From: a virus
Direction: 5' to 3' (one strand)
DNA: 49,586 nucleotides
IMG/VR virus record: IMGVR_UViG_3300005253_000020
Span: 1-49,586 of that record
Below, one piece after another: positions 2,875 to 48,072 of the stretch (position 1 is its first letter; each line of letters begins with the position of its first letter). The notes beneath the pieces are model-generated. The model was not told where the DNA came from. It ran no database searches and saw only the letters and a list, made by a program, of their open reading frames with translations. The position numbers were made by a program, and so were the translations under genes.

Positions 2875-3003
2875 TTATATGACAGCATACAGGATACTAA
2901 CGATAAAACGTGCAAGGCCGGACACTGTGAGTATGCCGATTGGTACTATTCCAGAGAGCAAAAGCACTGTCCGGCTTTACGGGTTTTACTATTGGAGGAT
3001 TGA
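2863..3003 (+). CDS. Small Cys/His protein, 46 aa
   Basis: A 46-codon frame ending in a TGA that sits within the ribosome site region of the following gene. It contains CKAGHC at 17-22 and a further HC near residue 36, a spacing suited to metal binding. No good Shine-Dalgarno site precedes its ATG, and a promoter-like −10 hexamer overlaps its first codons. The codon choice and position in a tight gene run support it; the missing translation signal argues against it. Function unknown. Confidence 0.4.
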   Translation: MSYALYDSIQDTNDKTCKAGHCEYADWYYSREQKHCPALRVLLLED

Positions 3004-3005
3004 CA

Positions 3006-3155
3006 ATGATAGAGTTTCATGTTATAGTACAGGTCAAACGGATAGACGGCGATACTGGTTGGAAAGAAACAGCCATACCAAAACATTGTCCGGCGGTATT
3101 CGAGACATTGGAAGAAGCCGAAATATATTGTGATAATCTTATGGTGGGGGGTTGA
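3006..3155 (+). CDS. Small protein of unknown function, 49 aa
   Basis: ATG at 3006 follows a strong GGAGG and lies three bases after the previous stop. The 49-residue product starts with an alternating hydrophobic β-like stretch (MIEFHVIVQV) and ends with an acidic helix, a compact α/β mini-protein. A longer frame starting upstream at 2940 and one in another phase at 2870 overlap it, but neither has a translation signal. Function unknown; the gene is part of the tightly packed early cluster. Confidence 0.6.
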   Translation: MIEFHVIVQVKRIDGDTGWKETAIPKHCPAVFETLEEAEIYCDNLMVGG

Positions 3156-3157
3156 CG

Positions 3158-3436
3158 ATGTTTGACCACATGGACACAATAGCCGAACAACGTGGTATCG
3201 CCGAGAATCAATACCGACAGAGTTTTAGTCATACTATTGATTTCGGCAAACGCAAGAAATCCAAGTTTATGCTGCTGGCTGGTAATGTAAAACCAGAACA
3301 TGCGATATGCAAAAATGCTCCAGCACCGAAACGCAGACGGAGTACTCGACAGAAATGTTTCATACCCGGTTGTCAAAATATGAGTCTACGCGGTATGGAA
3401 GTCGCCGCACGTATGGATTTATTAAGGAAAAAATAA
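3158..3436 (+). CDS. Basic protein of unknown function, 92 aa
   Basis: ATG at 3158 is preceded by a run of Gs (GGTGGGGGG) that can serve as ribosome site. The 92-residue product is strongly basic in the middle and C-terminal part (clusters KRKKSK and KRRR) with two cysteines, suggesting nucleic acid or phosphoprotein contact. It is three bases from the preceding stop and its own TAA overlaps the next ATG (TAATG). Not recognised as any family. Confidence 0.6.
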   Translation: MFDHMDTIAEQRGIAENQYRQSFSHTIDFGKRKKSKFMLLAGNVKPEHAICKNAPAPKRRRSTRQKCFIPGCQNMSLRGMEVAARMDLLRKK

Positions 3437-3582
3437 TGGAATATAGATATAAGAAAATGATAAAATATTGGCAACTGAAATGCTGGATATGTGGGCACAG
3501 ATACGAAGTTAAAGATCATTCCGGTGATAAGGCCATAGAACGTTGTCCTAAATGTGGTCGTGGAACAATTGGGGTAAACTGA
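3436..3582 (+). CDS. Zinc-ribbon protein, 48 aa
   Basis: The 48-residue product has CWIC at 18-21 and CPKC at 37-40, a textbook pair of zinc knuckles 15 residues apart, preceded by a basic, aromatic N-terminus. It starts by TAATG overlap with the previous gene, implying coupled translation. Such single zinc ribbons in phages often tune host RNA polymerase or bind DNA, but nothing here identifies the partner. Confidence 0.7.
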   Translation: MEYRYKKMIKYWQLKCWICGHRYEVKDHSGDKAIERCPKCGRGTIGVN

Positions 3583-3586
3583 GGCA

Positions 3587-3618
3587 TAATTTGCATATCC
3601 GAAATTGTAGAGTATATT
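3587..3618 (+). promoter_or_regulatory. Rightward promoter candidate
   Basis: After the stop of the zinc-ribbon gene comes TTGCAT (3591-3596), a 16-bp spacer and TATATT (3613-3618). The upstream 13 bases are identical to 2842-2854. A start near 3625 would give a short leader with GGGTGG before the ATG at 3634. Confidence 0.5.
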
Positions 3619-3633
3619 TTAATGGGTGGCATT

Positions 3634-3756
3634 ATGAAAAGAATCAGAAAGATACGCAGGGAGAAAAATCACTATGAGATATGTGAGACCGACAGATTCA
3701 GATTGTATATAGTGATTGGAAATTATCTGATAATCTTATGGGGACTGAAAAAATGA
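3634..3756 (+). CDS. Small membrane protein, 40 aa
   Basis: ATG at 3634 follows GGGTGG by four bases and lies just downstream of a promoter candidate. The first 28 residues are highly charged and basic (KRIRKIRREK), and the last 15 form a hydrophobic helix (LYIVIGNYLIILWGL), so the peptide is a tail-anchored or N-in single-span membrane protein. Its TGA overlaps the next ATG. Function unknown; the topology resembles small phage inhibitors or holin-like peptides, but nothing more specific can be said. Confidence 0.5.
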   Translation: MKRIRKIRREKNHYEICETDRFRLYIVIGNYLIILWGLKK

Positions 3757-4148
3757 ACGTCAAGAATATAATCGGCATAAAAACGAATGATTATATCGCT
3801 ATGCTGCATGACGGCAAACTAGAACCGAAACAGAGTAAACAGGAGAACAAAATTATGAGCACAGAAAAAACAGTAATAAGAACTATTGATGGTAAGAAAG
3901 TAAACCTCACACCAACCGAGAATTTCATCGACCGGGCAGCGTATCGGCTACTAATGCTCAAAACCCAATTCGACCAATTGGGTAAACAAGTCGGCCCACA
4001 ATACGAAAAGACCGATGAGATGATAGCCACCATCGAGACTGTGATTCTTGAAATGGCTGAAAATGTGATAGCCGCACTGAAACAGCCGACAACTACTAAA
4101 GCAAAAGCAGCAGTAAACCCATTCAAGAAACTTCTTAAAAACTGCTAA
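3753..4148 (+). CDS. Unknown protein, 131 aa, possible second start
   Basis: The frame starts by ATGA overlap at 3753 and encodes 131 residues. A second in-frame ATG at 3855 has a much better site (AGGAG nine bases upstream) and would give 97 residues. The N-terminal 34 residues are therefore either a distinct leader or an alternative form. The shared part has a β-like start, a long amphipathic helical region and a basic, Ala/Lys-rich C-terminus ending FKKLLKNC. No family recognised. It is the last gene before the folded element at 4151-4289. Confidence 0.65.
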   Translation: MNVKNIIGIKTNDYIAMLHDGKLEPKQSKQENKIMSTEKTVIRTIDGKKVNLTPTENFIDRAAYRLLMLKTQFDQLGKQVGPQYEKTDEMIATIETVILEMAENVIAALKQPTTTKAKAAVNPFKKLLKNC

Positions 4149-4150
4149 TG

Positions 4151-4289
4151 TGTATTGTCGGATTGTGCTGGTGGTGATATGGTAATCTGATGGGGACAAG
4201 CTGGTGCCGATAGTTGGGTTCGATTCCTGTAAAATACGAACTATCGTCCATTGCAGACCGACTGCCCACCAACACAGTCCGACGATGTG
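4151..4289 (+). ncRNA. Strongly folded intergenic element, candidate RNA or RNase III site
   Basis: Bases 4157-4174 pair with 4266-4283 in an 18-bp stem with one G-U and one mismatch; adding G-U pairs extends it to 4151/4289, 24 pairs. Inside are a perfect 8-bp hairpin stem (4208-4215 with 4239-4246) and a GCAG/CTGC hairpin (4254-4257 with 4262-4265). The wobble pairs form only in the + sense. No good coding frame explains it. It lies between two genes of one operon, so it could be a processed small RNA, an RNase III cleavage site, or a regulatory leader of the 4330 gene. Confidence 0.6.
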
Positions 4290-4329
4290 TGTTAACATAA
4301 ATCAGAAACGAGTATTGAGGGTAAAAGTT

Positions 4330-4698
4330 ATGAATGCTATAGAGAAAAAGTATGCAGTAAGTAGGATAGAAGATTTAGCGTCAACAGTCAGAAACAGTAT
4401 CAATAACCGGAGTAGGGTAGAGCCATTGAACAAAAAACAGATGATAAAACTATTACAGACAGGCAAAGTCAATGCCAAGAAAAATTCAGACATATCATAC
4501 TACGGGACATGTATATATAGTCTGTTTGACTGGACGCCATTCTTGTTTATACCGGAATTGTCTGACAAACAGGCCAACATTAAAAAAGCCAAGCTCGCTG
4601 CCGACGTACAGGAAACTAAAGATGCTATAATGCTTGGCGACAATAATATAGCACTTGAGTTCATAAACAAATTTGCTGGACGCTGTAAAAAACTTTAA
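4330..4698 (+). CDS. Unknown protein, 122 aa
   Basis: The open frame reaches back to 4204, but that part lies in the folded element; ATG at 4330 with the preceding GAGGG is the sensible start. The product is 122 residues, basic in the first half, with an aromatic centre (YYGTCIYSLFDW.PFLF, near residues 57-74) and a helical C-terminus. No motif identified. It is bracketed by two folded non-coding elements (4151-4289 and 4711-4789), an arrangement that suggests its message is processed separately from its neighbours. Confidence 0.65.
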   Translation: MNAIEKKYAVSRIEDLASTVRNSINNRSRVEPLNKKQMIKLLQTGKVNAKKNSDISYYGTCIYSLFDWTPFLFIPELSDKQANIKKAKLAADVQETKDAIMLGDNNIALEFINKFAGRCKKL

Positions 4699-4710
4699 TC
4701 CTCCGTACCA

Positions 4711-4789
4711 CTGCATCGTGTAAGCTGCTATCAAGATAGATAATTGATGCTAGTACAAACGGCGTTTTGTGAACACGAGCACGATGCAG
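4711..4789 (+). ncRNA. Second folded intergenic element, 79 nt
   Basis: A perfect 10-bp stem (CTGCATCGTG at 4711-4720 with CACGATGCAG at 4780-4789) closes a 59-base interior with two smaller helices: ATCAA/TTGAT extended by GC pairs, and ACAAA/TTTGT with a six-base loop. The 5' arm can alternatively pair with ACACGA at 4775-4780, so two exclusive folds are possible. It occupies the gap between the genes at 4330 and 4833. It is not a tRNA: no anticodon or T arm can be drawn. Confidence 0.5.
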
Positions 4790-4832
4790 ATTTATTGAGA
4801 ATTAACAGAAATAAATACTGGAGATTAGAACT

Positions 4833-5153
4833 ATGAATAATATAGACAAAGACAAAACAGTTATTACACGATGTCCGATAGAAGGTTGCAACGAGATCAT
4901 GGGTAGAAACAATGACGGTGACTTAGTATGTACAACGTGTGAACACGTTGTTGAAATAGGAACCCATACCCATGAGCCAGTAGTGACGCTGCAAGATTCG
5001 CTTGAGATGATGACATCGGATGAAATCGAGAACGCTATCCGTGATGCGGCAAACGGAATTATGGCGGCAGGATATGATCCTGAATTGGTTAGGGTATACA
5101 CCGATCAGATCGTGATATGTGTCACAGAACAGAAATACAGGGAGATGATATGA
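4833..5153 (+). CDS. Zinc-ribbon protein, 106 aa
   Basis: ATG at 4833 follows CTGGAG by nine bases. Residues 14-36 hold C14, C19 and a CxxC at 33-36 (CTTC), a zinc ribbon of the kind found at the N-terminus of transcription-related proteins. The remainder is acidic and helical, ending in a segment that overlaps the start of the radical SAM gene by four bases (ATGA). Coupled translation with that enzyme suggests, but does not prove, a functional link. Confidence 0.7.
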   Translation: MNNIDKDKTVITRCPIEGCNEIMGRNNDGDLVCTTCEHVVEIGTHTHEPVVTLQDSLEMMTSDEIENAIRDAANGIMAAGYDPELVRVYTDQIVICVTEQKYREMI

Positions 5154-6307
5154 GCACACTACTAATCCAATTTAACAGTGATCTGCTAACACAAGACGAA
5201 GATCCAACAGCGAAGAAATACTATGACATGTTGTACGATGGTCGTCGTCCTGGCTACCAGAGATTCGGGCCGACGTGGGAGATTCCACAATGGATAGCCG
5301 AGATGTCCTACGTAGAATCAGACGCAGATGTGTACTTTGCCAATCATGTACATGATGCACTCCGACAGGCCGAGGGATATACCCGCGTGGCGTTCTCAGC
5401 ACTCGACTGTAACTGGAAACTGATACAGAGATTCGCACGGTCGTTTCAGGGTTTGGTTTATGTCGGTGGTTATGTAAACCCAGGCGTATGTAGCTCGCTG
5501 AACGGTAATATTTTGTGGTGCTGTAGCATCAGGGACTACTGTGAACAACGGGAACTTGAGTATAAATCCGGCGTAGACTATCGGTACTTCGCCGGGGCCA
5601 AGACGATAGCACGACTAACACTGTCTACAGGATGTAGGCATATGTGTAAATTCTGTATTGTGCCGAGACATATACGGGAACGTGACTGGCAAGATATATA
5701 TCAGCAAGCCGATGAGATATGTAGATTAAATAGCCCACTGGTCTATATCAACGATAAGACATTCGGGCAGGCTGGGAACTGGTGGCGATTACCGTGCCTG
5801 TTCAAGTATATTGTTCAATATGCGGAAACCACATTCAATGGTTTTATAATCCAGACGACAGCGAGCCAGTTCCTGAAGCTGAATGATGATTTCTTACTGA
5901 AATCTGGTATCAGATATGTAGAACTCGGCGTCGAATCATATAACGATGAGATACTGAGCGATATGCGGAAACCCGCGAATATAGCATCTATTGACGTGGC
6001 TATAGAGAAATTGAGGCGTCTGAGGATTAAGCTGATCCCGAATATCATAGTCGGTCTACCGGGTGAGAGCTACGCCACATACGCCAATACGATACGCTGG
6101 TGTTACAACAACCGGGACGTGATCTCACATATCAACGTCTACAATCTGGCACTGTACGATGACGCCGAGTTGTCAAGAGAGATTGAGCACATCGATGCTG
6201 ACCTGGATGAGAATAGCACGGGCAAGAGTTACTATAAAGATCAGACCGTACACGAGTGGGCAGCATCAGCGTTCTACTCGTTCGGTATGGCTGCATTACG
6301 GAGATAG
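5150..6307 (+). CDS. Radical SAM enzyme, 385 aa
   Basis: The CxxxCxxC iron-sulfur motif is at residues 162-169 (CRHMCKFC), preceded by a typical β strand (ARLTLSTG), and followed by the barrel elements expected of the family, including VELGVES and a late glycine-rich strand (IIVGLPGES). The 150-residue N-terminal part has a GLVYVGGYVNPG segment like that in B12-binding or methylthiotransferase relatives, though a cobalamin-binding His is not clear. ATG at 5150 with GGAGATG is chosen over the longer frame from 5117. The substrate is unknown: base or tRNA modification, or a cofactor step, are possible. The chemistry (4Fe-4S, S-adenosylmethionine) is inferred from the family. Confidence 0.9.
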   Translation: MSTLLIQFNSDLLTQDEDPTAKKYYDMLYDGRRPGYQRFGPTWEIPQWIAEMSYVESDADVYFANHVHDALRQAEGYTRVAFSALDCNWKLIQRFARSFQGLVYVGGYVNPGVCSSLNGNILWCCSIRDYCEQRELEYKSGVDYRYFAGAKTIARLTLSTGCRHMCKFCIVPRHIRERDWQDIYQQADEICRLNSPLVYINDKTFGQAGNWWRLPCLFKYIVQYAETTFNGFIIQTTASQFLKLNDDFLLKSGIRYVELGVESYNDEILSDMRKPANIASIDVAIEKLRRLRIKLIPNIIVGLPGESYATYANTIRWCYNNRDVISHINVYNLALYDDAELSREIEHIDADLDENSTGKSYYKDQTVHEWAASAFYSFGMAALRR

Positions 6308-6310
6308 AAT

Positions 6311-6820
6311 ATGATACCTAAATTAGTACAAAAAGTCTGGAAGGTTATTCAGGACATAAGCATAGAACATCACAAAGAGATGTACTCTATGCTTGGGGTG
6401 AAACTTTCACCGAAAGATTATGACCCTGAGTCCTGGTATGGTGGCATGTCTCATCCACACACGGGAAAATGCTTGCCAAAGAAATATCAGCTTAAAGCTA
6501 CAATAGCCCGGTTACTTATGGGAATAGCGACCGAACGACCTGTGGGTAAAGAAAAATCTGACACTTACCTTTGGATAGTCTGGCCGGAAGGGGACGGCGT
6601 GCCAATATACCAACACAGTGTGCATGGTGTTAATTGGCTTTCCAACAAACCTGTTGATTATCACGATGGGACTTTTGGTATGGTGCCTAAGTGCCGATTG
6701 AAACCATCTAAAGGCAAGTTATTATCGTCTGGTCAATACGGTTTGGGCGTCCCTTATACGATAGCCTGTAGCCTATGGACTAAAAATGTAGTAGACACAT
6801 TACCTGAATTGGAGAACTAA
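6311..6820 (+). CDS. Unknown protein, 169 aa
   Basis: It starts three bases after the radical SAM stop, with GAGAT upstream. The soluble 169-residue product has a helical N-terminus, a His-rich segment (MSHPHTGK) near residues 47-54, and a β-rich second half with many Gly and Trp residues. No catalytic signature is evident. The immediate spacing to the radical SAM gene makes it a candidate partner or substrate protein. Confidence 0.7.
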   Translation: MIPKLVQKVWKVIQDISIEHHKEMYSMLGVKLSPKDYDPESWYGGMSHPHTGKCLPKKYQLKATIARLLMGIATERPVGKEKSDTYLWIVWPEGDGVPIYQHSVHGVNWLSNKPVDYHDGTFGMVPKCRLKPSKGKLLSSGQYGLGVPYTIACSLWTKNVVDTLPELEN

Positions 6821-10398: not shown

Positions 10399-10433
10399 TT
10401 GCAAAATGGGGTCAAATGGAGTATATTAGAATG
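10399..10433 (+). promoter_or_regulatory. Promoter-like element sharing a 35-bp signature with the leftward promoter
   Basis: TTGCAA (10399-10404), a 17-bp spacer containing TGGGGTCAAA (10407-10416), and TATATT (10422-10427) are followed by AGA and ATG at 10431. The − strand element before the HNH gene (1482-1448) has the same spacing, the same TGGGGTCAAA at the same place, and the same TAGAATG ending. The geometry puts the start codon three bases after the −10 box in both cases. Confidence 0.55.
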
Positions 10434-10847
10434 AGCGAAAAAATCAAAACAACAATGACCGAATTTCAGATAATTGTTTTCAGGCTTAGACACCACGAAC
10501 ACTTCGGGAGGTCAACTGAGGAAGCTGCTGCCATCTTGGAGACATCACCTAGTTCTATCCGCAATGCTCTGTCCGCAGTGCGTCGAACGTCCCCACAACT
10601 ATTCCCGATTTTAAGTCGGAAAGACTGGACGATCTGGCGATGGTGGACAGAGCATAAGCGGACGATGAAGCAGATAGTTAAGATCATGGATCTGTCATAT
10701 AAGACCGTACAGACCAAACTGCTCAGGACACGCAAGAAATTGGGCCTTACAGGAGTAGACCGCGAGCACGAGCATCCGCACCTTCGATACGAAGACATCG
10801 AGCATAATATTGGTAACCCCGACTGGGGTATAAAACAAATTTTCTAA
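10431..10847 (+). CDS. Helix-turn-helix transcription regulator, sigma region 4-like, 138 aa
   Basis: Two helix-turn-helix segments are visible: STEEAAAILETSPSSIRNAL (near 28-47) and TMKQIVKIMDLSYKTVQTKL (near 78-97), each with the pattern of sigma-70 region 4 or LuxR-type proteins. The second is followed by a basic tail. The product likely binds promoter DNA and may switch early to later transcription. The ATG at 10431 has GGAG nine bases upstream; an ATG at 10416 is an alternative. The gene's 5' end carries the 35-bp signature shared with the leftward promoter, making it a plausible self- or cross-regulated regulator. Confidence 0.75.
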   Translation: MSEKIKTTMTEFQIIVFRLRHHEHFGRSTEEAAAILETSPSSIRNALSAVRRTSPQLFPILSRKDWTIWRWWTEHKRTMKQIVKIMDLSYKTVQTKLLRTRKKLGLTGVDREHEHPHLRYEDIEHNIGNPDWGIKQIF

Positions 10848-10851
10848 CGGG

Positions 10852-10909
10852 GTCAGTGCCACCATCAGGCTATTGAAGTCATATATAAAGAAATGGGATA
10901 GGCACTGGC
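10852..10909 (+). promoter_or_regulatory. Hairpin in the leader of the MazG-like gene
   Basis: CAGTGCC (10854-10860) pairs with GGCACTG (10901-10907), extendable to nine pairs with a G-U, and CCAT/ATGG (10862-10865 with 10893-10896) continues it inward. It fills most of the 88-base gap before ATG 10936, ending 13 bases before the ribosome site. It may control transcription read-through or translation of that gene. Confidence 0.35.
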
Positions 10910-10935
10910 TCTTAACTTTTACTGGAGGTGGAAAA

Positions 10936-25627: not shown

Positions 25628-28600
25628 CGTCGTCTTCTCACTGGTGGTCTATTGATCGTCCGATGCCGGCCTGTCGGTGCCTTCGGCTTGTTCTTCTTTA
25701 TCATGTACTCACTGTAGACTATTCGTTTGATGTCCTCGGTCTCACCCTGAGCTAGATCAATGATACCACCTGTGGTTGTTATAAGCTGCTGCGGAATCTT
25801 ACCAGTGAAAGCACCATAAGTACCTACCCCGTGCTCAATTGTCTTCTGGATATCCCCCCGTTTAGCCGAGGTAACGGTGCGAGCACCTTCTTCAAATCCC
25901 TTGAATGGTATTGCCGATATCGCGGACTCCAGTGGGTCCCAGTCTCCGGTGGCTGCATTATAAATAAATCGTCCAAAGAATACGTGTGGTCCCATCATGT
26001 GTGATGCGATATCTTTAAGGACTTCTTCTGGTGATTCAGGTAACCGACCCCTGGTTATCATCCCCAAGAGGACTGCCGGTATTATCTGCCCAGTCATAAA
26101 TCTTTGTGTTGCTTGTAACTTGGTTATTTTACCAGCCCTAAGTTTACCGTAAATGTCATGTCTTAGCATGTTCCAATTCTTGTTCGGCTGATTCATAAAC
26201 TGGGTCATCATTTTCTCAAAGGCATTACCCCTGAAAAATCCTGGAAGGTCTTCAACGTTACCCATAGGCTGTGTAGAGGTCACCAGGTCATCAGCGACCT
26301 GGATGGCAACTTTCTCATTCCCATCAAGGTCTATCATTGCCTGTTCATAGGCGGACAGCCATACCGCTGTAGTCGTGGCCTTATCATTATATGCTATGTG
26401 GGCCATTGATATCCTGGACATCCGCTTGCCTTGAAAATATTTGCGAACGTCACTCCTATCCCATTTCCGAATGAGATCACGGTTCCAGTCACGGCTCTTC
26501 ATCATCTTAGACTTCTTGCTGGCCTCCGCGTAATCCTTCTTGAGATTACCCAGAGCACCCATATCGCCATAGCGGGCCATCCGCTTCATAATAGACCAGG
26601 CAATGTCAGGGCGAACGGTCATGGCGTTTATGCCTGATATAAGTTGTTTGGGGGCTACGGTCAAAGACTTGAAACCAAGTACAAACTGGACGGCGTTATA
26701 CCGCAGGTTCTTGGCTATGTTTCCGAAGTATCCGTTATCAACGTCCGCCGATCCACGGGTGGAATCCTCTAGCCATCGCCGCATCACCTTATACCCCTCA
26801 CCGCGAGTGGCGTTATTCAATGCCTTCTTGAACTTAGGGTTATCCATTGACCTGCCCACTTTAGCGGCTACTGGACCGACCTCGATGAACCGTTCTACCG
26901 CGTCTATCATCTGTGGCAATACCGTGGCCATATCAATTCGGGCTCTGGCTTTAGTGCCTGTACGTTCCTTGGTCGCCTTTTCACCGGGAGTTCTTATCTG
27001 TTTCCTGCCTATGTTGCGGGCGAGTTCTTCTATCGCTGGATGCTGGGAGATCTCATCCTGATCCTCGGTGAGAAGCATCATGTAGAAGTCTTCTTTTGTG
27101 ATGTCTTCAATGCCCATACGTTCGGCAGCAGCGAAGAACCTCGGGCTCATGGTATCTATATAGGTCTGGATCTCCTGTACGATGGCCATCTCTTCATCAG
27201 ATATCTCGACCGACTTGATGACCTGATTCACGGCCTGGGCGTTGTCAATCTCCTCATCCTCAAACCAGGGCTCAACACGCTTGCGGCCCTTTTCATTCTG
27301 TGCCAACACATACATGCCAATTCTTTCCGTGTCAGTCAACGGGAACCCAGCTACGACATCGTTACGTTCATTGAATATCATCTTCCCGAAATCAATACCG
27401 AGGTCCTCGAAGGTCTTAACGAATCCTGACATTATCTTCTTACTGTTATCACGGGCTCTTGCATTGGAATTCTTTATGGGGTGGTACACGAACCGCTTGA
27501 TTGGACCACTCTCCATATACTGGTCTAACCGCTCGGTGAGTTTCAGCATCATATCTTCATTTAGCCCGTAATAGGTACCCCATCGCTTGGCTTCCGTCAA
27601 GAGTTTACCCACCTTACCCATCCTCCGCCGTTCGCCTTCAGTTGGCTGGATCCTGGGTAGGGTTTCCAACTGATCCACGATCATTGTGGCCGGGGTGATG
27701 CGTTTGCCTTCAGGCGTGACCAGGCCGGGCACCAGCGGCTTTTTAGACGTGGCGTCATCCAACAGGGCTTCTACATTCGCTCTCTGCTTCTTTAAGAAGG
27801 TTAGTTCCCTCCGCTCCTTGGCCGACCGGTCATCCTTATTCTTCAGTTCCCGGAAGCGGCCTTCAGCGTACTGAAGCGTGGCATCAGTCTCCTCGTTCAT
27901 CATGCCGTACTGCTGGCCGATGGCCTGATCGGAGGTGACGGGTTCAGTCGTGGCTACGATTTCGGCAGGGACCTCGACAGGAGCAGCAGGTTTATCCCCA
28001 TTAACCCGGCCAGCCTCGGTTAATACAGCACCAGCACCACCCAGGAACGGAGCAGCAACAGCACCGCCGAGAGCAGCTTCGCCGAGCCGTTCACCGATGG
28101 CCCACCAGTCCGGGGACCCATCAGTCTTCACCGGGTACTCTCCACGGAATGCAGCGGGTACGCCGAGTGATACGCCCTCCTGTGTAAACTCCTCGATGGA
28201 CTCCTCGATGGATAGACGCAGGGCATCAGGTCCGAAGTTCTTGAAGCCTTCCTTACCGGCGATGAACAGGCCCTTTGTCTTGGCCAGCTTGATAAATGCT
28301 TTGAGCGAATGTTTCCCGCTCTTGGCAAATTTCAAGATCCTGCCGACCTGAATAGCCTCGATGACGGCGTTGATTGAGCCTACTACCACACGCTCTGTTT
28401 GGGCCTGCTGCTCCGTAGCACCGCTGGCGATGGCCTCATCATAGGCGTTATCCCCCTCAACTACGAAGCCCACAGTAGCGGCCCCTACAGGACCGGCAAC
28501 GATGCCACCCACCATCGCGTTGCCCATATAGGGTATGGCCTCGGATACCACGCGGGTCGTCCAGGCCAGGGGGCCAGAGTATTTACGTCCAAATTTCCTC

Positions 28601-41570: not shown

Positions 41571-43499
41571 CTATCTCCTGAAGTCAAATCGTTTCTTGCC
41601 GCGTCCGACACCATGCTTCTCTTTCTGTATCTTCCGCCGATACGCCGCCGATCTCATCGTCTGCGGTCCTTCCTGTGCGGTCAGCTTCCCGGCCCTGGCG
41701 TCTTTGTCCTCGACGGTCAAAGCATCAGCGATCACCACGTCACCATGTGTCTTCCGGGCCGACTGGTTCTCCTCGACCATGCAGGCCGGTCCTATCCCGC
41801 CGGACGGATAATTGATATACATCTTGGCTTCTTCCAGGCCCCAGATCGAGTGGTTGAAATAATTGCCGTGGGCTAACGCCCTATCATAATTAGCCAATAA
41901 CAAAGCCTTCGAGTTCGTATTGGCGTGCCAGCCAAACTTCTTCGACTTCTTATCACGCACATCACCCGCTCGCACGTTACGGTAATAATACGGGTAGCAA
42001 TACTTCTTGACCAATATCTCGCCAAAGTCCCAACCACATAAATTCATTTCCCACTTCATGTGCGGAAGTTTACGCCGTCCGCCGACCCACAAGGCAAGAG
42101 CAGCCGCTACTCGTACCAGTTCATAAGGAGGAGTATTGGCGTCCCGCCACTCAGCTATTTTCTCTTTCGTCTGCTTGCATTTAATAGAAACAACAGAATT
42201 GGAAGCTCCCTGGCCTTTCGATATATCAATCCCAAAAATGTAGTCTTTGGTTTGATCTGGACGACCTGATACGAGATTGGTCCATATTCGGAGAGGTCCA
42301 TCCTTCCGTCGTCTTGCCATACACTTGGTAACATCTTTACGTCTGAGTATGTTCTTGATCTTGTCATCAGAGATACCCTTCTTCCAGTTAATATCCCACC
42401 GTGATTTCGGCTCTCGCCCGAACAGTGCGATGTGCTTATCAATGTTCTCGATGGTGAAAAACATACTGCCAGCTTCAACATCGATGGCGTCGATCTCGCG
42501 GGCCATCTCCTTCGGCGACCTGACCAGACACTCGGCATCATACCAAGGAGAGCGGATCTTCCAGGCTTTAGTCACCGGATCTTGTTTCAGATATCGTCCC
42601 TTGCCCTTATCCGGATGATCCCACCACATCAGCGGGAACACCTTAATCATCCCGGACTTCTTCCACTTCGAGTACTCAGTACCAGGGCCAGCTCCGGTCG
42701 AGTTCACGATTCGCACCAAACTGGCGTCTCGCGTAGCTGACCGCATCAAAGCACCCTTTTCTACCTTAGCGAACTCATCAAGCAGAGAGACAATACGTCT
42801 GTCACCAGATGCCGCATGTTGTGTGGTAGACTCACCATCGATACAAGCACCATTAAGTGCGTTTTTCATGTGCATCTTAGTCCGGTACTTCTGATTATAC
42901 CCACAATCAGGCGGCGTCATCCAGGCTGGCAACCAGATATTAATGTAATCATGCCGCTGGAATAGGGCCTTCATATTACCCGGTTTATCAACGTAATCTT
43001 CAGTCCTGGACAATTCCAGCATCTGGGCATTTTCCCGGTATAGCCAGAGCCAATGAATGAAATTAATACAGACCCAACTAGCTCCCATATCACGGCTCTT
43101 GTCAAATAATATGTCTATGGCCTTCAGGAACTCTTCATTGCTACACTCACCAAGACATCTAATTAGTTCCGTGAACGCCCTATCCTGGACCTCCCATGTA
43201 ATGAACGGAACGTCAGCATCCGTGGAGATTATCCGCTGCCCGTCTTTCACATCCATCTGATGAAAGGTCCAGGAAAAGGCGTTCACCCACAAAAGCAGTG
43301 ACTCCTTACACGCTGCCATGATATCAGCCTGAAAACCTTCATCCTTCTCCGCCGCACGGAGGATCTTCTCTCGATAGGCGAGGTTAGCCATCTCTCCCTT
43401 GGGAACCTTCCACCCAGTCTTCGGACAGGTCCACACCTCCACTTCTTTAGGAAATGGAGTAGGTAATTCTGGTTTTAGCTGGTCTAAATTGTTAATCAT
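41571..43499 (-). CDS. Terminase large subunit, 642 aa
   Basis: ATPase motifs: KSRDMGAS at 134-141 (the deviant Walker A of terminases), SLLDEF at 238-243 (Walker B and catalytic Glu), and SATRDASLVRIVNST as coupling motif. Nuclease domain: IFGIDISKGQ near 416-425 with catalytic Asp, and HGDVVIADAL near 592-601 with another. It packages DNA into the prohead through the portal. The gene overlaps the HNH endonuclease upstream by eight bases. All motifs intact. Confidence 0.9.
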   Translation of the reverse strand: MINNLDQLKPELPTPFPKEVEVWTCPKTGWKVPKGEMANLAYREKILRAAEKDEGFQADIMAACKESLLLWVNAFSWTFHQMDVKDGQRIISTDADVPFITWEVQDRAFTELIRCLGECSNEEFLKAIDILFDKSRDMGASWVCINFIHWLWLYRENAQMLELSRTEDYVDKPGNMKALFQRHDYINIWLPAWMTPPDCGYNQKYRTKMHMKNALNGACIDGESTTQHAASGDRRIVSLLDEFAKVEKGALMRSATRDASLVRIVNSTGAGPGTEYSKWKKSGMIKVFPLMWWDHPDKGKGRYLKQDPVTKAWKIRSPWYDAECLVRSPKEMAREIDAIDVEAGSMFFTIENIDKHIALFGREPKSRWDINWKKGISDDKIKNILRRKDVTKCMARRRKDGPLRIWTNLVSGRPDQTKDYIFGIDISKGQGASNSVVSIKCKQTKEKIAEWRDANTPPYELVRVAAALALWVGGRRKLPHMKWEMNLCGWDFGEILVKKYCYPYYYRNVRAGDVRDKKSKKFGWHANTNSKALLLANYDRALAHGNYFNHSIWGLEEAKMYINYPSGGIGPACMVEENQSARKTHGDVVIADALTVEDKDARAGKLTAQEGPQTMRSAAYRRKIQKEKHGVGRGKKRFDFRR

Positions 43500-44343: not shown

Positions 44344-47103
44344 CTACGTGCCATACGTCCACCATCCCTTGACTGTTATCGCTATAATATCAAAAGGTGT
44401 ATTTTTAGTTTTGTATTCCACAACCCTGTTTGAATCGCAGGCCACAACAGCGTCCAAAACTGCTGGTATGTTTGCGACAATAGTGGTTATTCTTCCTACA
44501 TTGATGGCGTTAGTATTTCCATTTTTCCTCAATTCCAACTCAGCATCCACTATCCCATCTTGTACGATAAGCCTAAGCAGAACAGCTACGGCCCCAGCAG
44601 GGACTATAGAACTAAGGTCTAAATCGTAAAAAGTTCCATCCTGAGTAAGGTCGGTCTCTCTGTAATCGTGGACTGATGGATCACCCCGATCAACAAAATG
44701 ATTACCCAGACGTATATCTGTATCTGCGTCATCAGTAAAGTAGGCTTCATTGGGGGTAGCGGTGTTAATCCAAAACTGCCCCTTGCCCGCAATAACGGCT
44801 TCAGCTTCAGCTTGCTCGGTCAAAAAGAGGACACCACCGTTCGTTAAGTCTTGGCCGTTCCAATCAAACGCCGCTGATGCTTGGCCAGAGAGATCACTGA
44901 GGGTTTCTGCGAAACTACGTCCTTCTAATCCCGCTGCCGTGAACTTGGCAAAATCATTGTCGGCAGCGTCGGCATCATCCACCTCAAGAAGATTGTTATC
45001 TGCGATGCCTATCGTCTGCTCTGCCAATACATCAGTACCAATTACATGGCCTATAATACTACCATTAACTGTTAAATCCCCTGCTATGACTGTGTTTCCA
45101 AGGCTATTAACAGAAAAAATATTATCATTTTGAACCGTATCCGCTGCATTCCAAATACCAAAGTAACCTGATGCACCAAGAACAACATCCACGTCAGAAG
45201 CAGTCCCTTTTAATCTTATTGCGTTAACAGTATCAGGGTTCTGCTCAGATACTAAGTCTCCAAATCCCAGAGATAAATCCCCACTAAGGGTCATTCCTAC
45301 AAAAGTCGGCGATGCCACAATAAGAACGGATTGATCTATGAAGGAGTGATCGCTTCCGTCGTTACTGACGTGTGTAAATGCAGCATCCCACTCGGTATTC
45401 GTCACGGCTGTATTGATGTCACCCGTGTCGATGTTGACGTTGGTAAGAATCTGGCTCCCCATATTCCAAGCACCAGCCAATGCTCTACTGCCGTCAACAA
45501 GAAGATAATTCGATTCAGTGTATTCTGACGCCGCCCCTGCACCATCGAAGCCTGCAAGGGTGGAAACGGTCCCTGTATGGCCCGCAGAAGTCCAAGCTAA
45601 GGCTGCTAAATTATTATGTGCTGTCACCCCGCTACCTGTAAAGGGAGTTCCAAATGCAGTTTCAACCTTCTCAGCAATATTTTCTGATTTTTTGAAGATG
45701 AATTTAGACGCAATAACACTGGCAGAACTTAATCTGTTTGGGATTGACGACGCGGGTTGTTCCTCATCTTCCGCTTGCCCCTCTGTAACATATTGAGCCC
45801 TGCCGTATAATAGTACTATATGCCCATCTGGTTCAATGTACCACCACAAAACCGCCCATCTATTGTTTGTCATTACAGTCAGCGTGCCTGCATTGTCATA
45901 CTGAGTGTTTGGCCAAGCAGAAACACCAGTGGCCTCTACTCCTCCAGCCGAGTATGTGTCGAAGGTGTCTGCACCTGAAGTATCAAACGCTGGAATTGGA
46001 TAACTTGTTCTGCCCCACTCTAATTGACCCGCAGTTATAGTCACGTATCTATTTGCATCACCGGACTGCCCAAAGATCAAACCGCCCTTTCGCCTGTTCC
46101 TTACCACGTCGTCAACGTGACGGATATACCGCCCCATTTGACCTATAGATTCCTCAAGTCTAACTCCCAAGTTGAATGTGTGCGAGATTACACCGCCCTC
46201 GTCGGTGACGACTCCAAGCATAATATTATCAGCAGCTTCTATAAATTCATCGGTGCTGAGATTGATCGTCCCAGAATCGTTTACGAATACGTATTGGGTG
46301 GTATTGTCAGCAATTGCTAAACCAGTAGTTCCAGCAAACTTGAATGAAACCAGGGGTGCATTATCGTCGTTGGTTGTGCGGATAAAGCCCTCACCTGCGG
46401 ACACATCCAATGTCCCAGAACCGCCATCGCTCAACACCCCGCCCGTGAAGTAGCCCGACGATCCTGTATTATCGAAATACTCTTGAACTTGGTCTACCGT
46501 GGGGGAGCCTATGCCGAGGGCTATGGGTACGTCCGCTGCATTAACTTGACCAGCCCCAGAACCCCAATCAATGTGTGTGTCGTTTATACCATTCGCATTG
46601 ATGTCAAGCGTGACAGTACCGTCGCCATCGTCGGCGACAGAAACGGGGGTGGTCCCAGCTATCCAGGAAGTGAGATCAGAAACAGAGGACAAAACTTTTG
46701 ATCCATCAGAAGCCATCAGCCGAGATGCTGTAAGATCAGTAATCGTTTCTCCGGCCACAGTGAAATTAGATGCTCCGGTGTGTATATCTTGGGGAGTGGA
46801 TAATGTAATCGACCCAGCACCGTTGGTCACGGTAACTTGATTGGCTGTACCGGTCAGAGCCGCCAGTACTGGAGTCGCTCCCGTAGAGCCTATTGGAAGC
46901 TGGCCGTTCGAGGCCGCACCTAACGATGTGAGGACCCCGCCCGAAGCGGCGTAGATCAATGAATCAGTTGTGAGTCCTGTAAGGGCGATATCCCCGAACG
47001 TAGGAATAGACGTTGGTCCCAGATCCCGCTTAATCCTGGCAAAATTATGACGAACTTTGTCCCAGGCACCATCTTCTACATTAGATAGCTGTCCATTGCT
47101 CAC
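44344..47103 (-). CDS. Tail-fibre-like or appendage protein, 919 aa
   Basis: The start is GTG at 47103 with GGAGT upstream. A short N-terminal adaptor (residues 1-35) is followed by long, repetitive β-rich sequence with Gly, Thr, Ser and Asp patterns (GTANQVTVTNGAGSITLS and similar at several places), typical of phage fibres. The C-terminal 130 residues form a compact β-domain with VKGWW near the end. Similar segments (e.g. TGTVSTLAGFDG, VNGSIIGHVIGT) mark the shaft. Likely receptor-binding. Being placed before the terminase genes is a little unusual. Confidence 0.75.
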   Translation of the reverse strand: MSNGQLSNVEDGAWDKVRHNFARIKRDLGPTSIPTFGDIALTGLTTDSLIYAASGGVLTSLGAASNGQLPIGSTGATPVLAALTGTANQVTVTNGAGSITLSTPQDIHTGASNFTVAGETITDLTASRLMASDGSKVLSSVSDLTSWIAGTTPVSVADDGDGTVTLDINANGINDTHIDWGSGAGQVNAADVPIALGIGSPTVDQVQEYFDNTGSSGYFTGGVLSDGGSGTLDVSAGEGFIRTTNDDNAPLVSFKFAGTTGLAIADNTTQYVFVNDSGTINLSTDEFIEAADNIMLGVVTDEGGVISHTFNLGVRLEESIGQMGRYIRHVDDVVRNRRKGGLIFGQSGDANRYVTITAGQLEWGRTSYPIPAFDTSGADTFDTYSAGGVEATGVSAWPNTQYDNAGTLTVMTNNRWAVLWWYIEPDGHIVLLYGRAQYVTEGQAEDEEQPASSIPNRLSSASVIASKFIFKKSENIAEKVETAFGTPFTGSGVTAHNNLAALAWTSAGHTGTVSTLAGFDGAGAASEYTESNYLLVDGSRALAGAWNMGSQILTNVNIDTGDINTAVTNTEWDAAFTHVSNDGSDHSFIDQSVLIVASPTFVGMTLSGDLSLGFGDLVSEQNPDTVNAIRLKGTASDVDVVLGASGYFGIWNAADTVQNDNIFSVNSLGNTVIAGDLTVNGSIIGHVIGTDVLAEQTIGIADNNLLEVDDADAADNDFAKFTAAGLEGRSFAETLSDLSGQASAAFDWNGQDLTNGGVLFLTEQAEAEAVIAGKGQFWINTATPNEAYFTDDADTDIRLGNHFVDRGDPSVHDYRETDLTQDGTFYDLDLSSIVPAGAVAVLLRLIVQDGIVDAELELRKNGNTNAINVGRITTIVANIPAVLDAVVACDSNRVVEYKTKNTPFDIIAITVKGWWTYGT

Positions 47104-47115
47104 TACTTGTACTCC

Positions 47116-47463
47116 TTACTCCGCCAACTTCCTTACATACGCATTCTTGGTACTCTCGGTGCCCTCGAAGTACAGCGTAGTCTTGTCGATGGGCATCCTG
47201 AACTGCTGGGTATGACCAGCAGGAAATACCCACTCGATATTCGCAGCGGTTGATGTCACCCCAGTAGCCGATGCCAGAATAGCAGTCCCGGCAGTCCCTA
47301 CTAACGTGATAGCATACATCTGCCCACCCACCAGAGTCTGGGTCTTGTCATCACCCGCCGTACCGGTGGCAAGCGTTATTCCGCTCGCGGCCACCGGATT
47401 TACACTGTCGAGTGGTGCTACCCGATTGCCTGAGTTGTCACTAAGATATACTTCCTGTCCCAT
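47116..47463 (-). CDS. Small β-rich structural protein, 115 aa
   Basis: ATG at 47463 after GGAAGGATGTAAT. The product is β-rich (VYLSDNSGNRVAPLD, MYAITLVGTAGTAILAS, FRMPIDKTTLYFEG), similar to small phage decoration or tail-tip proteins. It sits between an Ig-like protein and the fibre. No enzyme motif. The function is probably structural. Confidence 0.6.
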   Translation of the reverse strand: MGQEVYLSDNSGNRVAPLDSVNPVAASGITLATGTAGDDKTQTLVGGQMYAITLVGTAGTAILASATGVTSTAANIEWVFPAGHTQQFRMPIDKTTLYFEGTESTKNAYVRKLAE

Positions 47464-47487
47464 ATTACATCCTTCCCAAATGTCTGA

Positions 47488-47844
47488 CTAGCCCAAGAGA
47501 GGGCGGCTTGTTATACCCTCAACTGTAGACTTAACACTGTCCACAGCACCACCGATAGAGTCGATGTTATGTAATACAACATCAAACTGTTTGACCATCT
47601 TACCAGACGCGGTTGCACTGTCAATCAGCACTTTCCACACTCCAACAACATCGGGGGTGAACACGCCGTAATACCGCCCGGTTGACCCTACCTCGGTCAT
47701 AATGACATCCGGGAATATAGGTATGTCCTTGGCCCCGGTTTCGTCGTATATCTCCATAACGACATCGGTCAAACCCGTTGTAGACCCCTTTGCCTGATAC
47801 GTCACCTCAATCACTTCGCCTACTTTGTACGTGCCTTGTCCCAT
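47488..47844 (-). CDS. Ig-like small structural protein, 118 aa
   Basis: ATG at 47844 with AGGAGG. The product has the strand pattern of an Ig or BACON-like fold: VGEVIEVTYQAKG, VVMEIYDETG, GRYYGVFTPDVVGVWKVLID, then a helical tail (IGGAVDSVKSTVEGI). Similar proteins with a GxY..tfTP...G.w core are common in phage tail or fibre loci. Likely a virion component. Confidence 0.6.
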   Translation of the reverse strand: MGQGTYKVGEVIEVTYQAKGSTTGLTDVVMEIYDETGAKDIPIFPDVIMTEVGSTGRYYGVFTPDVVGVWKVLIDSATASGKMVKQFDVVLHNIDSIGGAVDSVKSTVEGITSRPLLG

Positions 47845-47853
47845 CTCATCCTC

Positions 47854-48072
47854 CTACTCTTGCTTCTCTAGTTTATCTATCGACAGAATCTTTAAGACAT
47901 ACTGCCGGTCGTTGTGAACAGCGTTCGTCTCGTTGTTCGTGATCTGGGTTAACTGCACATGGCCCTCGAACTCAAACTCGGCGTCTATGTCAACACCGGT
48001 AAACATAGGTTCAGTGACGTGCTCTTGGTTATCCTTTCGCATTATGACTTGTTCGACATACCATTCAACCAT
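47854..48072 (-). CDS. Unknown protein, 72 aa
   Basis: TAATG-coupled to the preceding gene, with GGTGGA. The product is β-rich and acidic (AEFEFEGHVQLTQI). It may be a small head or tail component or a regulator. No motif. Confidence 0.55.
   Translation of the reverse strand: MVEWYVEQVIMRKDNQEHVTEPMFTGVDIDAEFEFEGHVQLTQITNNETNAVHNDRQYVLKILSIDKLEKQE

Follow-up and report, generated by a model that had tools for sequence, protein, structure and literature searches.

A long stem between two early genes of an uncultured phage and its possible role in mRNA processing

The intercistronic gap and its phage setting

The window analysed here comprises an entire virus record (49,586 bases). It has a 121-base direct repeat at both ends and thus looks complete. 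The element lies in a dense run of + strand genes, within a non-coding gap of 181 bases (4149-4329) between genes 3855-4148 and 4330-4698. Genes of this operon mostly abut or overlap, and three of the few big gaps (4149-4329, 4699-4832 and 10848-10935) hold strong stems. The neighbouring genes are co-directional. The operon setting proposed in the preliminary description holds, while a single transcript shared by the flanking genes is something that we infer. The features at the locus are as follows.

3855..4148, + strand: upstream gene (likely start 3855), encoding an orphan protein of 97 aa
4143..4174, + strand: 5' arm of the terminal stem, from stem score and pairing; contains the stop codon (4146-4148)
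4175..4265, + strand: interior of 91 bases, whose folding does not exceed that of shuffled sequence (z +0.49)
4217..4227, + strand: T-arm-like string GGTTCGATTCC, without a surrounding tRNA fold
4266..4297, + strand: 3' arm of the terminal stem, from stem score and pairing; 32 bases to the next start codon
4330..4698, + strand: downstream gene, encoding an orphan protein of 122 aa; its ribosome-binding site, GAGGG, lies outside the stem

Nine related phage records (G001 to G009) were found via the DNA polymerase; three of them, G003, G004 and G006, are 47-48.5 kb long. Many proteins are common to the relatives from the polymerase onwards, while the early region, in which the element is located, is almost unshared. 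Neighbouring proteins led to no relatives save one distant homologue of gene 6824, on a contig that ends before the region. The early operon also encodes a radical SAM protein (5150-6307; Pfam PF04055, E 1.2e-13) with no close relatives in phage records. In the early region of G004 (L087 5660-7920) many small genes have almost the same leader (CCTTAACATAGTTGGAGG or similar), and a whole promoter-leader block, TTGACAAGCCATATCGAATATGGTATAATAAAGAGAATGATTTAGGAG, is common to two of these genes.

The terminal stem and its statistical weight

The arms 4151-4174 and 4266-4289 form 18 Watson-Crick and 5 G·U pairs (23 in total) with one C·A mismatch at 4168/4272, and they close an interior of exactly 91 bases, the size given in the preliminary description. 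That description reported an 18-bp stem with one mismatch, extendable to 24 pairs. The stem is real, with 23 pairs and the C·A in the 24-base arms, and it is longer still: in the extended arms of 32 bases (4143-4174 and 4266-4297) 30 of the 32 positions are paired, 23 by Watson-Crick and 7 by G·U pairs, and the other two are C·A. Pair probability is at least 0.95 across 4154-4174/4266-4286 (20 pairs) except at its one mismatch, and further G·U pairs lengthen the stem beyond it. This core alone spans the about two helical turns of dsRNA that characterise RNase III sites, which bears out the earlier remark that the stem has a length typical of RNase III substrates. The upstream stop codon, TAA, lies inside the 5' arm, and the 3' arm ends (4297) 32 bases before the start codon of gene 4330-4698.

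The RNA fold of the element has an energy of -54 to -55 kcal/mol; compared with dinucleotide shuffles, its z is -3.0 to -3.3. With a gapless stem score of 56.6 it holds the top + strand stem of the window; the best score in shuffles of the early region (n = 200) was at most 46.4, and within its own gap the stem has a z of 10.0, matched by 0 of 200 shuffles. The interior alone did not fold beyond shuffled sequence on either strand (z +0.49 on + and -0.61 on -), and the further hairpins proposed there earlier have no weight as evidence. The terminal stem is thus real and is the only part of the element that stands out from chance.

Could the stem nevertheless have no function, being a product of chance or an inverted duplication that has decayed within the hypervariable early region? 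When shuffles were made of the whole window (n = 100), the best stem score averaged 40.9 (sd 4.1) and the largest, 61.2, exceeded that of the stem. Read as a palindrome, the 32-base arms differ at nine positions, all by transitions, a pattern that an inverted duplication could acquire as it ages, and the flanking genes are orphans. A stronger stem also exists in the terminase gene (43171-43286) and is not kept in relatives, which indicates that conserved function is not required for a striking stem to arise. This explanation is opposed by the weight of the stem within its own gap, by the repetition of a layout that abuts the stop codon and by covariation at another hairpin of the operon (element 3, see below). 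We consider it unlikely, but among the rival explanations it is the one that we take most seriously. The terminase-gene stem, on the - strand and inside gene 41571-43499, has the highest score of the whole window (66.8) and a local fold of about -71 kcal/mol; the homologous stretch in five relatives is without a comparable fold.

Folding energy alone leaves the strand unsettled. The minus strand of the element also folds (z -5.19), as does its single-stranded DNA (z -3.51), which is expected of any inverted repeat. The best - strand stem is weaker than that on the + strand (40.8 versus 56.6), since on the + strand most of the positions that are not Watson-Crick form G·U pairs. The split of these positions into 7 G·U and 2 C·A (one-sided 0.09) is only suggestive of strand-specific selection. 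A hairpin acting at the DNA level, in replication, in recombination or as a cassette for gene shuffling where modules of the hypervariable early region meet, would agree with the single-stranded DNA fold and with an early region that is almost unshared among relatives, unlike the genes from the polymerase onward. Nevertheless, Watson-Crick pairs account for only 23 of the 32 arm positions, 7 of the other 9 form G·U pairs on the coding strand, and an origin-like dyad region lies elsewhere, making a DNA-level role highly improbable. The dyad region (1942-2347) is non-coding, has large dyad symmetry and lies near the cumulative GC-skew minimum. Dyad-rich non-coding counterparts were seen in G003 (27308-27866), G004 (44967-45385, corresponding to L087 4967-5385) and G006 (47187-47687). 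Together with that of the window these stretches span 400-560 bases, and they are candidates for a replication origin or a regulatory centre.

Searches for homologues and known RNA classes

The preliminary description saw in the element a possible new phage RNA family. The founder of such a family would be a separate non-coding RNA of 130-160 nt that is structured or acts in trans. The long terminal stem, which RNase III could release, and the 181-nt non-coding gap would fit such an RNA, as would the outcome with Rfam 15, in which no family reached its gathering threshold and nothing credible appeared even at E<=10. However, neither a structured interior nor a conserved core, as expected of a new RNA family, was found (interior z as above), and no homologue of the element was detected in any collection searched. 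There was none in phage records (searched as DNA) or in the nine related phage records, with very near records possibly outside these collections, and none in two interior-motif scans of IMG/VR viral contigs; the one of these scans that used the motif CGATTCCTGTAAAATACGA gave 0 matches. The flanking proteins (97 and 122 aa), as a route to homologues, yielded nothing, a Pseudomonadota MAG that holds a related phage gave only chance-level matches, and where the stem region had short blastn matches, in L007-L009, there was no comparable hairpin. As no homologue was found, neither a family nor covariation can be demonstrated for the element itself. Furthermore, the + strand has no promoter-like call from 3772 to 5291 and no terminator-like call from 2984 to 6650, which argues against an independent RNA gene. 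The proposal of a new family was therefore not upheld, and we regard a discrete RNA of this kind as quite unlikely.

The T-arm-like string GGTTCGATTCC is present in the interior, as reported, and could point to a degenerate tRNA or tRNA-like element: ATGGTAATCTG lies upstream of it, and the same pair occurs at near-same spacing in a tRNA-like stretch (L096 11085-11131). The hint of a tRNA fails, however. ARAGORN called no tRNA or tmRNA, and the Rfam tRNA model (RF00005) gave no match at E<=10 while being positive in all 14 control genomes. The T-stem implied around the string is poor (two G·C, two G·U and one T-T), there is no anticodon arm, and the long stem would compete with such a fold. 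A tRNA origin is thus barely credible. The collection scan for ATGGTAATCTG followed by GGTTCGATTCC returned one tRNA-like stretch, on a phage contig that is unrelated and carries a cluster of tRNAs; this stretch (L096 11075-11146) ends in CCA, lies within the cluster and was uncalled by ARAGORN.

Two other identities were rejected. The usual intrinsic terminator has no counterpart here, as the stem has no U-run on its 3' side (the sequence after the core stem is GTGTGTTAACATAAATC) and received no terminator-like call. The missing U-run and the position of the ribosome-binding site of gene 4330-4698 outside the stem argue against a terminator or a simple lock on that site. A retron was considered for the long closing stem, and inspection of the neighbouring genes revealed no reverse transcriptase.

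Stop-codon-anchored stems elsewhere in the operon and in relatives

The features in and beside two other big gaps of the operon are as follows.

4711..4789, + strand: element 2, in gap 4699-4832; stem CTGCATCGTG/CACGATGCAG; fold z -2.65, stem z 5.7
4833..5153, + strand: gene after element 2, cysteine-rich, with weak zinc-ribbon-like similarity below Pfam cut-offs
10849..10912, + strand: element 3, in gap 10848-10935, after the helix-turn-helix gene 10431-10847; fold z -3.11, stem z 4.3

A look-alike was found in the relative G004 (gap 47778-47914), where a 13-pair stem encloses 59 bases (stem z 9.1, fold z -5.78). These structures have a common layout: a stop codon lies at the beginning of the stem or no more than ~13 bases from it, and ~20-45 bases separate the end of the stem from the following start codon; in elements 2 and 3 and one G004 gap the stem also ends ahead of the next ribosome-binding site. 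The stems of elements 2 and 3 are short (10-12 pairs), and no common core or repeated sequence was found between the element and either of them. A search for homologues of the G004 look-alike returned G004 itself only, and the gene at 4833 had no detectable relationship to the G004 gene that follows the look-alike. When 95 co-directional gaps from seven genomes were compared, 15 held a sense-strand stem at p<=0.02, with ~2 expected and 11 on the antisense strand. The tendency to intercistronic stems is real, but it is mixed with terminators and other stems.

The same gaps bear on whether the element is a cis-regulatory leader, riboswitch-like or exerting translational control, of gene 4330-4698. 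The element does lie in the 5' region of this gene, and both element 2 and the G004 look-alike lie ~37-43 bases upstream of cysteine-rich genes. On the other hand, the ribosome-binding site is free of the stem, no Rfam riboswitch matched, and elements 2 and 3 have no core in common with the element. A leader is therefore very doubtful.

In the window, G001, G003, G004 and G006 alike, the stop codon of the orthologous helix-turn-helix gene is immediately followed by element 3 or its counterpart, with a terminal stem of ~8-12 pairs in all five. A small alignment made by hand from the only three alignable phages (the window, G004 and G001) covers 8 stem columns, and every one of their 24 cells pairs; five columns vary, and three change on both sides. 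Judged from this alignment, the covariation suggests that at least one hairpin of the operon is kept under selection as RNA. Several of the counterparts are followed by U-rich sequence, and element 3 may thus be terminator-like, of another kind than the element reported here. The loci concerned are window 10845-10935, L085 788-893, L002 5176-5272, L004 7705-7798 and L010 5964-6050; two of them were scanned with Rfam and gave no match at E<=10. Some counterparts have a CACC...GGAT core in common, and the helix-turn-helix gene before the hairpin is sigma-70 region 4-like.

A possible role in processing of the early mRNA

Starting from the observed stem, its position and its statistical weight, we tentatively favour, with a little less than even confidence, the reading of the element as an intercistronic hairpin that acts in cis on the early-operon mRNA and would set segmental processing or stability of the message, probably via RNase III. 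In favour of a cis hairpin, the + strand RNA pairs at 30 of 32 positions, since 7 of the 9 non-Watson-Crick positions are G·U, and the layout recurs in other gaps of the operon and in G004; the folding of the minus strand, the lack of covariation for want of a homologue, the shorter stems of elements 2 and 3, and an interior larger than that of the T7 R1.1 site, count against it. If, as we infer, the two genes are transcribed as a single message, the stem of ~21-23 positions (two turns of dsRNA) would separate the messages of 3855-4148 and 4330-4698. Host RNase III, a double-strand RNase, might cut within the stem; alternatively, the uncut stem might block 3' exonucleases. Either cutting or blocking would give the upstream and downstream mRNA segments different lifetimes. 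Since the stop codon lies in the base of the stem, a ribosome that finishes translation there would presumably open the stem, which could tie processing to translation of the upstream gene. A further version, that such fast-evolving, stop-codon-anchored intercistronic structures of the phage clade are set free as separate RNAs, each functional in its own right, the element being the largest, appears to us improbable.

The cis hairpin can be compared with known systems. In T4-type phages, intergenic stem-loops and promoters form cassettes. The element resembles these in that stem-loops lie between genes of a hypervariable early region, and differs from them in that no promoter-like site was called within it and no sequence is repeated between elements. 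Like intrinsic terminators and attenuators of phage operons, it is an intergenic stem after a stop codon, and several of the element 3 counterparts are followed by U-rich sequence; unlike them, the element is without a U-run or a terminator-like call and has a 91-base interior in place of a short loop. It is also similar to the RNase III sites of the T7 early region, being an intercistronic hairpin between co-directional genes of a phage early operon with a stem long enough for a double-strand RNase. The T7 R1.1 site, located between genes 1.0 and 1.1, is a 60-nt hairpin that contains an asymmetric internal loop (PMC6121014); in contrast, the element, as a putative site of this kind, has a longer, regular stem that closes 91 bases.

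Overall, the stem is real and statistically strong and its likely role is an ordinary one; this is one step short of a claim of function. With a real fold, an ordinary likely role and no relatives found, its own value is modest. If the reading as a cis hairpin is right, T7-like cutting of early mRNA by intercistronic hairpins would extend to an uncultured phage group, and the covarying element 3 provides a concrete, searchable RNA signal for this group.
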